64,000 bases of DNA, from assembly GCA_018065565.1 (NCBI GenBank), contig JAGHSZ010000022.1:1-64000 (forward strand), given 5' to 3'. Both the position numbers and the translations under genes were made by a program. Position 1 is the stretch's first letter; each line of letters opens with the position of its first letter. A model generated the notes under the pieces. It did no database searches. It saw only the letters and a list, made by a program, of their open reading frames with translations, and had not been told where the DNA came from. Of the stretch, positions 10,154 to 52,652 are shown piece after piece. The DNA comes from Candidatus Colivivens caballi. GTDB lineage: Bacteria > Bacteroidota > Bacteroidia > Bacteroidales > Bacteroidaceae.

Positions 10154-10351
10154 GACTTATTGGTACGTTGCCAAAATCGCTTTGATGTATTTCAAAAAAC
10201 ATATAGGTAACTTGACTAAATCATATAGGTGACTTGCTCGAATCATACGGATGTGTTTGCTTGCGACACCGTACTACTTTGCCCGCGCCACCGTACTACT
10301 TTGTCCGCGCCACCGTATGTTTTTGTCTGTGCCACCGTACGCATTTCGTTC
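10154..10351. repeat. Array C: 22-bp-period intergenic array
   Basis: Seven clear units start at 10198, 10220, 10242, 10264, 10286, 10308 and 10330, every step exactly 22 bp. The first two share CATATAGGT; the third has CATACGGATG; the last four share CACCGTA (starting GACACCGTAC, then GCCACCGTAC twice-type variants). Two further, weaker units may begin at 10154 and 10176. Spacers differ in sequence. The array lies in the 524-bp gap between the divergent rnf operon (minus) and the purine permease (plus). The period, not the sequence, links it to arrays A and B. Confidence 0.75.
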
Positions 10352-10436
10352 TTCATATTGTAACATGGGCAATGGTAAATTAGTGCTTCTTCATACTTTT
10401 TCTCACGATGCGTGTCGTTAAATAAGATTAAATTGC

Positions 10437-22270: not shown

Positions 22271-23749
22271 TTAGAACTGGAAATAGATGAATGGCTGGAT
22301 GTCGGACGACTTCACCTGAATGACGATGTAGATGATGACGATGATGAGCAGCGCCTGTACCGGCAGTGGCATCCGTGTCACCATTCGCCGCATCCAGTCG
22401 GAAGTGCGTGTCGGCAGGAAATGGAGTATGAATCCGAGTGCCATCAGTGCTGCAACCTCCCAGTAACCCTCAATCCATTGCATTGCCAGTTGTGGGTTGA
22501 ACCGAGTGCCAATCTGGTGCAGAATGGCGGTGGCGCTGTCGAAGTCGCTTTGACGGAAGAAAATCCATGCAAGGCATACGATGTGGAAGGTGATGATGAT
22601 GCCGATGACTCGCATCACTCCCTTGCTCTGATAGTTCTTTGGACGGTGGAGCAGCGAATTCTTCATCTTGTCGAGAGCCAGTGCCACTCCGTGCATTCCG
22701 CCCCAGACGATGAAGTTGAGGTTTGCTCCGTGCCACATGCCGCCGAGCAGCATTGTGACTATGAGGTTGAGATACTGACGCAACTTGCCGTGGCGGTTGC
22801 CTCCGAGTGATATGTAGAGGTAGTCTTTCAGCCATGACGACAGACTGATGTGCCAGCGGCGCCAGAACTCTGTGATGGATGCCGACTTGTAAGGTGCATT
22901 GAAGTTGAGTGGGAACCTGTATCCGAGCAGCAGCGCAATACCGATTGCCATGTCGCTGTAACCTGAAAAGTCGCAGTAGATCTGCAATGCATAGCCATAG
23001 ACAGCCATGAGGTTCTCGAATCCGCTATAAAGTGCTGGCTGGTCGAACACTCGTTCCACGAAGTTCAGACTGATGTAGTCGCTGATGACTGCCTTCTTAA
23101 ACAGACCACCGGCTATGTAGAACACGCCTGCACCAAACATTTCGCGTGTCACTTCGAGTGGACGGCGAATCTGCGGGATGAAGTCGCGGGCACGGATGAT
23201 TGGGCCTGCCACCAGTGTCGGGAAGAAACTGACGAAGAAGGCATAGTCGAGCAGACTGTTGAGTGGCTTGAACTGTCCGCGGTAGATGTCGATGGTGTAA
23301 CTAAGTGACTGGAAGGTGAAGAAACTGATGCCCACTGGCAGGAATATGTCGAGTGCAGTGAATGTCCCTCCTGCCACGCTGGCATAGAGTTCGCCGAAGA
23401 AGTTGGTGTATTTGAAGTAGGCGAGCAGTCCCAGGTCAATCAGCAGACTGAGCGACACCAGCCAGCGTTTGCCCCCCTTGCTCTGCACCTTGTCGATGCC
23501 ACGGGCAATGAAGTAGTCGCTGACGGTCACCACTGCCAGGAGGAAGAAGTAGAAACCGCTGCTTTTGTAGTAGAAATAATATGAGAATGCTGTGACAAAG
23601 AGCAGACGCAGTGTTGTGGTCTTGCCCATCAGCATGTATAAGAAAGAGAATACGAGGAACATCCACAGGAATAATCCTGAGGAGAAAATCATTGGTGACG
23701 ACGGGTCGTAAGTCAGTTGTTCCAGTATGTTATCTATTTCAAAATGCAT
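22271..23749 (-). CDS. MBOAT-family O-acyltransferase (AlgI-like)
   Basis: Polytopic membrane acyltransferase of 492 residues with about 11 helices. The active-site His lies in GGMWHGANLNFIVWGGMHG, and TEFWRRWHISLSSWLKDYLYI is the AlgI/DltB hallmark. AlgI-type proteins move acyl groups, usually acetyl, across the membrane for transfer to a polysaccharide. The SGNH protein encoded 66 bp upstream on the same strand is the expected extracytoplasmic partner. The acceptor glycan is unknown, because no capsule locus is in the window. Confidence 0.92.
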   Translation of the reverse strand: MHFEIDNILEQLTYDPSSPMIFSSGLFLWMFLVFSFLYMLMGKTTTLRLLFVTAFSYYFYYKSSGFYFFLLAVVTVSDYFIARGIDKVQSKGGKRWLVSLSLLIDLGLLAYFKYTNFFGELYASVAGGTFTALDIFLPVGISFFTFQSLSYTIDIYRGQFKPLNSLLDYAFFVSFFPTLVAGPIIRARDFIPQIRRPLEVTREMFGAGVFYIAGGLFKKAVISDYISLNFVERVFDQPALYSGFENLMAVYGYALQIYCDFSGYSDMAIGIALLLGYRFPLNFNAPYKSASITEFWRRWHISLSSWLKDYLYISLGGNRHGKLRQYLNLIVTMLLGGMWHGANLNFIVWGGMHGVALALDKMKNSLLHRPKNYQSKGVMRVIGIIITFHIVCLAWIFFRQSDFDSATAILHQIGTRFNPQLAMQWIEGYWEVAALMALGFILHFLPTRTSDWMRRMVTRMPLPVQALLIIVIIYIVIQVKSSDIQPFIYFQF

Positions 23750-23815: not shown

Positions 23816-25246
23816 CTACTGGTCGGCTGCCTGTTGCTTGCCGCTGCTGTGTTTCGGGGAATGTCGCCGTTCGTAGTTCCATTTGCCGTTTTGCAGCACA
23901 TCGTAGAATATCTGTCCGATGACACTGCCACCCTTGAAGTTGATGTGGGTGTAGTCGCGGTTGGCCTGTCCTGCCTGCTGCATACGGTATGTGCTGCCGC
24001 TTCCGCCCATTGCCTTTTGCAAGTTCCAGAATGCAATGTGCTCGTCCTGTGCCATCTGGCGTTGTGCCTCAACCAGGGTGGTGATGCCCCTCATGGTCTC
24101 GAACTTGCCGTTGGCGTTGCGTTGGTCGCGGTTGCTGACGCTGATGATGAGCATGCTGGTCTCTGGGAATGCTTTGCGGAAGTTGTTGATGCTCTTCTTG
24201 AATTTCTCACAATATGCGGCATAACCACTTTCGGATGTCACCATGTTCAGGCCATAGTGCATGATGATGAGGTCGTAGTGGCGCAGTCGTGCGAAGGCTT
24301 TCAGCGTCTCGGCAGGAATCGTTGCCAAATGCCAGCCGATGCTGCCTCGCATCGAGAAGTTATCGACGATGATGCCGTTTTTGCCTTCCAGTGCCAGTCC
24401 GTAGAATCTGCCCTTGCCGTTCACATTGATTGCTAATCGTCCGATTTTGCCTTGAACCACAGCCTTGCGGATGTCGGTGTATTCGGGTGCCGGTGCCATG
24501 CTGTCGGTGGTGTCGGCAGGCTCTACCAGTGCTCTGGAATATGTCAGTTGTGCCTCTTCGTCATTGACCATTGCCGTCATCTTCAAACCGTTGTCGGGAG
24601 TGAAGTAGATGATGGCGGTGCTGACTGTGTCGAGGTGTTCAGGAAACACGCGGTTCTGTCCCTTTGCCTTGATTGTGGCTGACCCACATGGCACATAGTA
24701 GCGTGAGTTGATGCCCTGCAACTGTGGATTGAACCCCTTGCCGCGCTCGTTGGCATTGTAGTCCTGCCAACCGGTGCTGTTCTCGACGATGGTGGTGCGG
24801 AACCCTGCCACTTGCGAGTGTATGTCAATGAATCCCACGCCATTGCCTCCGTATCGCTCTTGCAGCAGTTCGCGCAGGTTGGCAGTGAAGATGTCGCCTT
24901 CGATGAATGAGTCGCCGAAATATGCGATGCGCACCACACGCTTCTTCACGCTTCGCAACGCCTTGTAGAACTGGTCCATCTCACGGTCGATATTGAGTGA
25001 GTCGCGGAAGTCCTCAATCGGAGTCATGCCCTCGGGGATGCTGTCGCTGATGGCGAGCGCCTGTCTGATGCGCTGTGCCTCCTCCTGGCTTTCAGTCACA
25101 GTAGAGTCGGCAGCCTCCTCTGTTTTGAGTTCGCTGAGCAGGTCAACAGGACGAAGATTTACTCCGAACAGACTGATCTGTGGCAACCAGTACATACCTA
25201 CGAGCACCACAACAATAATCAATGTCAGTAAAAAAGTTCGTTTCAT
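23816..25246 (-). CDS. SGNH/GDSL hydrolase-like partner of the MBOAT acyltransferase
   Basis: Membrane-anchored (residues 4-22) periplasmic SGNH-fold protein. Block I is FGDSFIEGD with the nucleophile Ser, block III is IIMHYGLNM, and the C-terminal DYTHINFKG carries the catalytic Asp and His. Such proteins accept the acyl group exported by AlgI-type MBOAT proteins and place it on a glycan, as in AlgX/AlgJ or PatB systems. Length is 476. The last residues are basic and Gln-rich. Transcription likely starts at the minus-strand promoter 25292-25299, and downstream genes (MBOAT, recN) may belong to the same transcript. Confidence 0.87.
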   Translation of the reverse strand: MKRTFLLTLIIVVVLVGMYWLPQISLFGVNLRPVDLLSELKTEEAADSTVTESQEEAQRIRQALAISDSIPEGMTPIEDFRDSLNIDREMDQFYKALRSVKKRVVRIAYFGDSFIEGDIFTANLRELLQERYGGNGVGFIDIHSQVAGFRTTIVENSTGWQDYNANERGKGFNPQLQGINSRYYVPCGSATIKAKGQNRVFPEHLDTVSTAIIYFTPDNGLKMTAMVNDEEAQLTYSRALVEPADTTDSMAPAPEYTDIRKAVVQGKIGRLAINVNGKGRFYGLALEGKNGIIVDNFSMRGSIGWHLATIPAETLKAFARLRHYDLIIMHYGLNMVTSESGYAAYCEKFKKSINNFRKAFPETSMLIISVSNRDQRNANGKFETMRGITTLVEAQRQMAQDEHIAFWNLQKAMGGSGSTYRMQQAGQANRDYTHINFKGGSVIGQIFYDVLQNGKWNYERRHSPKHSSGKQQAADQ

Positions 25247-25291: not shown

Positions 25292-25299
25292 CAAAGATA
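25292..25299 (-). promoter_or_regulatory. Promoter -7 box for the SGNH-MBOAT genes
   Basis: The minus strand reads TATCTTTG, 45 bp upstream of the ATG at 25246, matching TAnnTTTG. Confidence 0.6.
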
Positions 25300-25483: not shown

Positions 25484-25703
25484 CGAGCGCTCATGTTTTC
25501 CTTCACGACCGCTCATGTTTTCCTTCACGAGCGCTCGAAGATTGAAAAAGGTGTACACCTTCTTGGATTTTGGTGTACACCTTTCTGCCGTTTGCTGTAC
25601 ACCTTTTTTCAGGAAGGTGTACACCTTTTTCAATTATCCTATGCACGATTTGACATTTATGAGCGCTCGTGAGGGAAAACATGAGCGCACGAAAGGGAAT
25701 TTA
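25484..25703. repeat. Array A: ten 22-bp units with palindromic 10-bp cores
   Basis: Units start at 25484, 25506, 25528, 25550, 25572, 25594, 25616, 25638, 25660 and 25682, every step exactly 22 bp. Cores in order: CGAGCGCTCA, CGACCGCTCA, CGAGCGCTCG, GGTGTACACC, GGTGTACACC, GCTGTACACC, GGTGTACACC, CCTATGCACG, TGAGCGCTCG, TGAGCGCACG. The 12-bp spacers are mostly AT-rich and differ, except that the first two are identical. CGAGCGCTCG and GGTGTACACC are perfect palindromes. The array sits between divergent promoters, about 185 bp from one and 80 bp from the other. Confidence 0.9.
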
Positions 25704-25781: not shown

Positions 25782-25789
25782 TAACTTTG
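25782..25789 (+). promoter_or_regulatory. Promoter -7 box for the HExxH lipoprotein gene
   Basis: TAACTTTG at 25782-25789, with TTG 20 bp upstream (25759-25761), fits the Bacteroidota consensus. The ATG is at 25853. Confidence 0.65.
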
Positions 25790-25852: not shown

Positions 25853-27142
25853 ATGAAAAAACTCTTGAATGCGATGGCTGTGGCTGTTGCCGCAATTATT
25901 GGCATAATGTTCGTGTCGTGCAGCGATGATGCTGTCGATGAAGTGTTGCCGACTGTCACCCGCTCGGAATATGGCAATGTGAATGTCATTGAGATGTCTG
26001 CTCCGACTGTCACCGGACGCAGTGTGACATTTAATGCAAAGGTGCTGAACATCTGCGATGCGGGTGTGAAGAAGGTAGGATTTACTTATTCCAACAAGAA
26101 TCCGCTGCCCGAACCAAAGTCGGGCACTAACAGCCTGCGCACGACTGCAAAGTTAGCAGCTGACAGCACATTCTCTTCGACAGTCAACAGCTTGACCGAG
26201 GAAGTGACCTACTATGTCCGTGCCTTTGCCGTGTCAAACAATGCCGACACTGTTTATAGCGACATCTATTGTTTCGAGGCTGAGGTGGTGTTGCCATCTG
26301 TCACCACGATGCCAGTGGTCAATCGTGCCCGTCTCGGTGCTGTGGTGTTTGGCAAGTTTAATGTACAAGGAACTAAACCTCTGAAATCGTGGGGCGTGTG
26401 TATGGCAACAACTCCGCTGCCAACCATCAACGACATGAAGGAAGTGGCGCGTGACACCTGCAAAATTAGTGGCTTTGAAGGTGAGTTTGGCGTGTTCTTC
26501 CAGCAGCTCACACCCGATGAACTCTATTTTGTCCGCTCTTATGTGGAAACTACCGACGGACGGGTGTTCTACGGCGAGAACCGGATGTTCCGCACCACTC
26601 GTGGTGGCCAGTACTCATGGCAATGGGCATCGAATGTTGAGGGCGCAAAAGCAGCAGGGGCATACGACCGCATAACCGAGGCTATGGATTCTGCCTCCTA
26701 TTATTATAATAACTATTCCAACCTCTACCTTTCAGCTCATGTGGAGTACAACACAGGGGTGCCGACTGCCGACTGCTCATGGGGCGGATGGATTCGTTTC
26801 GGATCGAATGCCCGTTATCAGTGGGTGGGCACTGCACAGCACGAGACATCGCACGGACTTGGTGTTGGCACTGCCGGAAACTGGTCGAGCCTGTGTGTCA
26901 ACGGCAAGTGGGTGAAGCCAATCGCCAACCGCACTCTGCGTGCCGTGATGCGCGACCAGTCGCTGTCCATCAGCGGCGACTCACAACACTTCTGGCCAGG
27001 CGGTATCAACCAGCGTGAAGAGGTGACTAACGGTACACAGAATTCGTATGGCGAATCCATACAGAACGAACGGATGCTCCGTGCCAATGCCATGATTCTG
27101 AATGCAATGAGCCTTGACGGACTCGGAGGCCCACGGCCATAG
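25853..27142 (+). CDS. Lipoprotein with Fn3-like repeats and a HExxH domain
   Basis: The signal ends in a lipobox (IMFVSC followed by SDD), so the protein is probably surface or periplasmic and lipid-anchored. Two beta-sandwich repeats follow, about 50-145 and 147-245 (each with VTYYVRAFAVSN or LYFVRSYVETT-like strands). The C-terminal domain (about 255-429) contains HETSHGLGVG with His330, Glu331 and His334, a HExxH zinc motif lacking the usual third ligand of metzincins, and ends near NERMLRANAMILNAMSL. I do not recognise a characterised family. A metallopeptidase is possible; a HExxH carbohydrate-binding or structural domain is the alternative. The start is the ATG at 25853, because the upstream GTG (25829) would precede the signal peptide needlessly. 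Confidence 0.7.
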   Translation: MKKLLNAMAVAVAAIIGIMFVSCSDDAVDEVLPTVTRSEYGNVNVIEMSAPTVTGRSVTFNAKVLNICDAGVKKVGFTYSNKNPLPEPKSGTNSLRTTAKLAADSTFSSTVNSLTEEVTYYVRAFAVSNNADTVYSDIYCFEAEVVLPSVTTMPVVNRARLGAVVFGKFNVQGTKPLKSWGVCMATTPLPTINDMKEVARDTCKISGFEGEFGVFFQQLTPDELYFVRSYVETTDGRVFYGENRMFRTTRGGQYSWQWASNVEGAKAAGAYDRITEAMDSASYYYNNYSNLYLSAHVEYNTGVPTADCSWGGWIRFGSNARYQWVGTAQHETSHGLGVGTAGNWSSLCVNGKWVKPIANRTLRAVMRDQSLSISGDSQHFWPGGINQREEVTNGTQNSYGESIQNERMLRANAMILNAMSLDGLGGPRP

Positions 27143-52342: not shown

Positions 52343-52652
52343 CGAGCGCTCGTAAATGTTCTCACGAGCGCTCGATAATTATAAAAAGGTGTACACCTTT
52401 TCTGATTTAGGTGTACACCTTCTTTCGGTTTGGTGTACACCTTTTTGAATTTTGGTGTACACCTTTTATATATTATCCACCGCACGATTGACAATTATCG
52501 ACCGTACGATAAAGAATTTATGACCGCACGATGATGTATTCATCACTGCATGACGATGCATTTCGTTGCTGTTTGACAATGATTTAACACAGTATGTCAG
52601 GCTTTTCATTACACTATGCCAAGCATTTCATTGCCGTGAGTCAGTGCTTTGG
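52343..52652. repeat. Array B: ~22-bp-period array with palindromic cores
   Basis: Fills the 325-bp convergent gap between GH28 and GH78. Cores: CGAGCGCTCG at 52343 and 52365; GGTGTACACC at 52388, 52410, 52432 and 52454; CCACCGCACG at 52477; CGACCGTACG at 52499; TGACCGCACG at 52521; then degraded units near 52543, 52565, 52587, 52609 and 52631. All steps are 22 bp except two of 23 bp, at the changes between core families. The order (CGAGCGCTCG, then four GGTGTACACC-type, then a GCACG-type core) matches array A. The last unit runs to within a few bases of the GH78 stop codon at 52659. Confidence 0.88.

Follow-up and report, generated by a model that had tools for sequence, protein, structure and literature searches.

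The array at positions 25484-25703 of the window (the 64,000-nucleotide stretch of Candidatus Colivivens caballi DNA analysed here) belongs to a family of intergenic arrays dispersed through the genome, in which dyad-symmetric cores recur at a pitch of 22 bp, four strong cores are preferred at the centre, and the core is conserved. Related species keep the pitch with other cores. At a probability of roughly 0.45, slightly short of even odds, we read the window array as a single copy of a non-coding element dispersed between genes, the phased dyads of which would be held by a putative dimeric, oligomerising DNA-binding protein.

Results

Direct reading of positions 25484-25703 bore out the ten consecutive 22-bp units, with cores changing block by block, that had been proposed in the preliminary description; every step is exactly 22 bp. 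The left flank block (25484-25549) holds three units with GAGCGCTC-type dyads, starting at 25484 (CGAGCGCTCA), 25506 (CGACCGCTCA) and 25528 (CGAGCGCTCG). Four units with GGTGTACACC-type dyads make up the central block (25550-25637), starting at 25550 (GGTGTACACC), 25572 (GGTGTACACC), 25594 (GCTGTACACC) and 25616 (GGTGTACACC), and three degenerate units form the right flank block (25638-25703), at 25638 (CCTATGCACG), 25660 (TGAGCGCTCG) and 25682 (TGAGCGCACG); none of the blocks is assigned a strand. Both flank blocks are like the corresponding blocks of other copies, and by per-column conservation the central block is the invariant part of the family. TRF gave period 22 for both blocks of the array. 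Only four of the ten cores (units 3, 4, 5 and 7) are perfect palindromes, the remainder having at least one mismatched position, and most can be read as variants of a single dyad, roughly GnGYRCnC. Two further arrays with a 22-bp pitch, also unstranded, lie in the window. The one at 52343-52551 is a second copy of the TGTACA family, in which two GAGCGCTC units precede four TGTACA units, the first at 52388, and decaying units follow; the one at 10201-10354 has ATATAGGTGACTTGCTCGAATC-like units followed by CACCGTACTACTTTGCCCGCGC units and is unrelated to that family in sequence.

The Colivivens genome is represented by a 2.55-Mb metagenome assembly of 168 contigs, 85% complete. A DNA search of this assembly picked up copies on many contigs, dozens in all, that were 80-90% identical, with matches to both strands; the array is one of about 100 dispersed copies, a point that the first reading had missed. 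The pattern TGTACACC-N14-TGTACACC had 172 occurrences on one strand and 160 on the other, a reversed control pattern had 0, and the tandem-period signal was absent at every lag in shuffled genome sequence, which together exclude chance. A four-core pattern gave 90 rows, which a hand count reduced to about 80 arrays once opposite-strand and shifted-register duplicates were merged; with 99-110 candidates from other searches, the family is put at about 80-110 intergenic copies. Each consists of four central GGTGTACACC dyads flanked on both sides by degenerate GAGCGCTC-like dyads, which vary in number, all in a 22-bp register. The copies fall into common spacer subfamilies, indicating that the arrays spread by copying. 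The two-core pattern had no match in 16 other genomes of the genus, where a DNA search gave weak fragments only, and the array had no match in plasmid and phage collections. At one copy (C142:17717, L018), decayed 22-bp units of the form GGTTA...ATCATGCATA run into the array from the left, as if old units kept to the register even once their letters had changed.

Conservation was assessed with a profile search that did not require intact cores, run over 906 kb of the genome partly picked for holding copies. Exactly four TGTACA were present in 57 of the 60 full copies recovered, six in two and two in one, the last of which seems to have lost exactly two units; no mutated core was found within the central four of any of the 60. 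From one TGTACA to the next, distances within arrays were 22 bp in 180 cases and 44 bp, with the register kept, in two, with no others, and steps between flank units were 22 bp in 155 of 155. Slippage was limited to the block junctions, 32 of which were at 22 bp and 21 at 23 bp on the left, with corresponding counts of 32 and 2 on the right. The constraint on pitch suggested in the preliminary description is supported by these steps and by the retention of the pitch in relatives whose core and spacers have changed. Its further claim that the array is not just a slipped satellite also held, the steps of the central block being regular and the 22-23 bp slippage being found only at junctions. A neutral minisatellite without function is very improbable indeed; relatives do have certain further 22-bp arrays that repeat almost perfectly in tandem, but here the cores are conserved while the spacers differ, the central count is steady at four and no drift of the period was seen.

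Difference from the consensus in 58 arrays was 23.7% for spacers, 3.7% for outer core bases and 0 for TGTACA, the last figure being fixed by the selection of these arrays as exact. Private substitutions numbered 0 in 24 core columns versus 6 in 36 spacer columns, a marginal result (about P 0.05), and the invariance of the core could partly stem from selection on source copies, from which selection in place is not cleanly separable. Per-column conservation dropped to background beyond the units, the number of which varies, and no fixed ends were found.

Changes in flank units affected one half-site in 186 cases and were compensated in 2, a one-sidedness such as protein half-sites would give. 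It counts against an RNA or single-strand DNA hairpin, acting as a bidirectional terminator, an attenuator or a cruciform, which we consider improbable. The window array folds strongly (-116 kcal/mol, z -14), Parabacteroides arrays fold well too, and convergent sites look over-represented (13/32 copies versus 30/124 long intergenic regions), but any palindromic repeat folds whatever its role, divergent gene starts also host arrays, and no Rfam family matched in the window. Complementarity between mirror positions within a copy was not above the between-copy level in the Colivivens genome, in a congeneric genome (G015) or in the four-core block of Parabacteroides; for the Parabacteroides flank units alone, within-copy pairing was raised (0.59 versus 0.45). 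A folded RNA or cruciform was rejected because, despite the strong fold, copy-by-copy covariation of the core block was absent in three lineages.

Called genes flanked 32 copies on both sides, and every one of these copies is intergenic. Thirteen lie in convergent, 13 in co-directional and 6 in divergent settings, against 30, 66 and 28 for intergenic regions of at least 300 bp (crude gene calls). No neighbouring gene family recurred at these 32 copies beyond two weak pairs, and array orientation showed no clear bias with respect to GC skew (20/16/13/9). The window array lies in a divergent intergenic region, between a GDSL gene on the minus strand and an uncharacterised gene on the plus strand. 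The former (23816-25246) encodes a GDSL-like acylhydrolase (Pfam PF13472, E 1.3e-6, 29.4 bits, under the curated cut-off) and is followed downstream by an MBOAT acyltransferase gene, also on the minus strand (22271-23749; Pfam PF03062, E 7e-33); the right neighbour (25853-27142, plus strand) has no Pfam family. A TAnnTTTG-type motif, judged by eye against the Bacteroidota promoter consensus, lies on each side of the array (25292-25299, minus; 25782-25789, plus). The location between divergent promoters originally reported stands as regards the divergent region, whereas as a setting it is atypical of the family.

This location, and the presence of arrays upstream of GDSL-MBOAT genes in G015, in G018 (another genus of the family) and in Candidatus Bacteroides pullicola, would suit an operator array through which a transcription factor controls the flanking genes. 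Such a role is nonetheless distinctly improbable: the roughly 100 copies occur in every gene orientation, mostly away from divergent starts, their neighbours share no common function, an array was present at only 2 of the 11 same-genus or same-family orthologues read, and in G015 an array occurs about every 10 kb anyway. Single-promoter control fails to account for this copy number and variety of settings.

In two species the arrays follow one another along contigs at more regular distances than random placement would give (P about 0.001), in small samples of 11 and 15 gaps taken from metagenome assemblies in draft state, with genes called crudely. On long Colivivens contigs, neighbouring copies were separated by 7.5 to 28.6 kb with a CV of 0.34 (P 0.0004 versus uniform placement, 0.0008-0.0016 versus random intergenic regions), and no gap was shorter than 7 kb, the expectation being about 3.5 such gaps (P about 0.005). 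In G015, with arrays of different sequence families pooled, the CV was 0.32 (P 0.0008) and one gap fell under 5 kb where 6.8 were expected.

Comparison with other species showed the geometry to be kept while the letters change. The GDSL orthologue of G015 (protein 49% identical) is preceded by four GAGTGCGCACTC-type units at 22 bp, and that of G018 by CATATATG-type units, mostly at 22 bp. Loci with a best period of 22 or 44 numbered 40 per 400 kb sampled in G015, where they belong to several unrelated sequence families, and 13 in the 400 kb sampled in G018. Three were found in 256 kb of a close relative, G011, and 0 in 89 kb of G012, which implies a function that is not essential across the genus. 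There were also 0 in 200 kb of E. coli K-12, so that the idea of a spacing constraint withstands the first challenge named in the preliminary description, an occurrence of the 22-bp spacing at chance rates in unrelated genomes. A GTGCGCAC pair pattern occurred 128 times in G015 and 15 times in G009 and was absent from the rest of the genus, the Colivivens genome included; 13 of the 20 GTGCGCAC-type arrays of G015 have four units. Many more 22-bp array families were seen in G015 (L271-L290), some of them near-perfect tandem repeats (e.g. AGTCCGAACGGTGTAAACTGTC, GCAGATATCTATGCAAGCTGTT). That its many families all have units of 22 bp suggests a preference for this length whatever the sequence. 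A perfect 22-bp satellite (AGGAGATGGCAAGGTGTTGGCA) was observed near a RAYT-like gene in G007 (L298).

A scan of 84,980 species found three TGTACACC at 22 bp in 18 places. In three Parabacteroides genomes, 12 of the 16 arrays had four intact TGTACA spaced by 22 bp; the spacers are unrelated, and flank units of the AACTAA/TTAGTT type take the place of GAGCGCTC. One array occupies the same convergent position in P. gordonii and P. goldsteinii, where the surrounding DNA is 84-85% identical. Outside TGTACA just 16-21 of 52 positions of this array are identical; the arrays having been found via the core pattern, the identity of their cores reflects ascertainment and their common position does not. 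Genomes of Atopobiaceae (L122, L128 and L129) carry 37-63 TGTACA pairs at 22 bp each, frequently arranged as two pairs in inverted orientation some 100 bp from each other; this would be a dispersed element of its own, in a different phylum. TGTACACC also recurs as a direct repeat at 22 bp, next to a TTAAACTCTTAAA-like motif, in one viral contig and in two distantly related bacteria (L062, L121 and L125), and these repeats may be transposon ends of the Tn7/Mu-type kind. The Atopobiaceae, Draconibacterium and viral-contig matches may be different things.

The main rival to a protein-bound element is a non-autonomous mobile element (MITE- or REP-like) whose dyads serve as recognition sites for a transposase or HUH nuclease; we regard it as possible, if on balance doubtful. 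Core conservation would then follow from the spread of intact copies only, and even spacing from target immunity or the loss of close copies. The family is non-coding, intergenic and of high copy number, as MITEs generally are, and its roughly 100 copies with common spacer subfamilies, the species-specific character of such families and the quasi-inverted repeat formed by the whole array (both-strand matches, strong fold) all fit such an origin. So does the presence in the Colivivens genome of five RAYT-like relatives of Y1 transposases, at L114:8589-9731, L191:4839-6350 and three more places, with long C-terminal extensions and a weak match to NF047646; similar proteins occur in G002, G007, G013, G015, G016 and G064. 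Weighing against mobility, conservation fades outside the units without fixed ends, unit number varies, and plasmids and phages gave no match. The evenness in G015 spans different sequence families, which sequence-specific immunity would not yield. No transposase was found adjoining the arrays, and no family array lay beside the two of the five RAYT-like genes whose flanks were read. A RAYT transposase is an unlikely mobiliser in view of these two sets of flanks and of the lack of a RAYT-like match in the array-bearing G018 and P. gordonii. If the array is a mobile element, it represents a class without fixed ends, in which inner geometry rather than termini is conserved.

Discussion

Binding of the phased dyads by a dimeric, oligomerising protein is the explanation that we favour. 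The working part of the element would be four dyad-symmetric protein-binding sites, one per 22 bp, or about two helical turns, which would place them all on the same side of the helix, with weaker sites in the same register usually extending this block both ways. A homodimeric DNA-binding protein may sit on each dyad, adjacent dimers making side-by-side contacts at the fixed pitch; a cooperative nucleoprotein filament or patch would start from the four strong sites and could then grow along the degenerate dyads of the flanks. Were the geometry fixed by protein-protein contacts, DNA specificity could drift between species, and a core that varies by species while the pitch and often the count of four are kept would be expected. 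A putative dyad reader of duplex DNA explains the conservation of loopless palindromes, the uncompensated flank changes, the two-turn pitch and the preferred number of strong sites.

Because the arrays lie between genes, about 10-20 kb apart, a genome-wide job is likelier than single-promoter control, and the most likely such job would be nucleoid or domain organisation, or control of topology. A wider proposal, speculative and unlikely in its full extent, is that Bacteroidales chromosomes carry evenly distributed 22-bp four-dyad arrays as nucleation or boundary sites of domains of about 10-20 kb, with fast-evolving oligomerising readers, a geometry kept from family to family and code words particular to each species. 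It is rare among dispersed bacterial repeats for geometry and sequence to have come apart naturally as they do here, with the pitch staying constant and four units being preferred as the letters change. Should the arrays prove to be regularly placed nucleation points of a nucleoprotein structure, they would provide a concrete, testable handle on chromosome organisation in Bacteroidota, as well as a DNA tag for fishing out a putative family of nucleoid proteins.

Several known systems share part of this architecture. Iteron arrays, among them the four O-protein sites of the lambda origin and the iterons of plasmids, have dyads at about a two-turn pitch that bind dimers cooperatively, and the likeness of the present arrays lies in several dyads at about this pitch, with the same number of sites as lambda. 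Iteron origins occur once per replicon and adjoin their initiator gene, whereas the arrays have about 100 chromosomal copies, no linked initiator and no recurrent neighbour family. Tn7/Mu-type ends contain several tandem transposase sites of about 22 bp beside transposition genes; the arrays, in contrast, are symmetric and stand alone.

REP/BIME families likewise comprise many intergenic palindromic repeats per genome, are species-specific and have proposed roles in topology or protein binding, REPs being hairpins of 20-40 bp that are tagged GTAG or CGTC and often flank a RAYT gene (PMC3733652, PMC6006769). The dyads of the arrays, by contrast, are loopless and keep to a 22-bp register; fixed tags are absent, and no RAYT gene flanks the arrays in the cases read. 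Neither GTAG nor CGTC occurs in the window array, and both are sporadic in 58 copies (1-8 copies each); with 186 one-sided changes to 2 compensated and no within-copy covariation, no looped hairpin of the REP style is kept by compensation.

A literature search, conducted largely outside subscription papers, found no description of 22-bp four-dyad arrays in Bacteroidota, and the only near relative was BrickBuilt of Porphyromonas gingivalis, which has 19 dispersed intergenic copies with 1 to about 23 tandem units of 23 nt per element (PMC4596501). The two are alike in the order of their hosts and in being intergenic, dispersed and built of short tandem units near two helical turns (PMC4596501). 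BrickBuilt elements contain internal indels; their leader and tail are conserved, and their terminal repeats are IS5-like (PMC4596501). In the arrays nothing is conserved outside the units, and the 8-mer of the GAGACCTT-type terminal inverted repeats was present in only 1 of 58 copies. BrickBuilt also lacks the four-dyad core, and its unit is a 23-nt direct repeat, as opposed to 22 bp in all within-block steps here. The array family is a new variety of dispersed intergenic repeat, with an unusual conservation of geometry over sequence.
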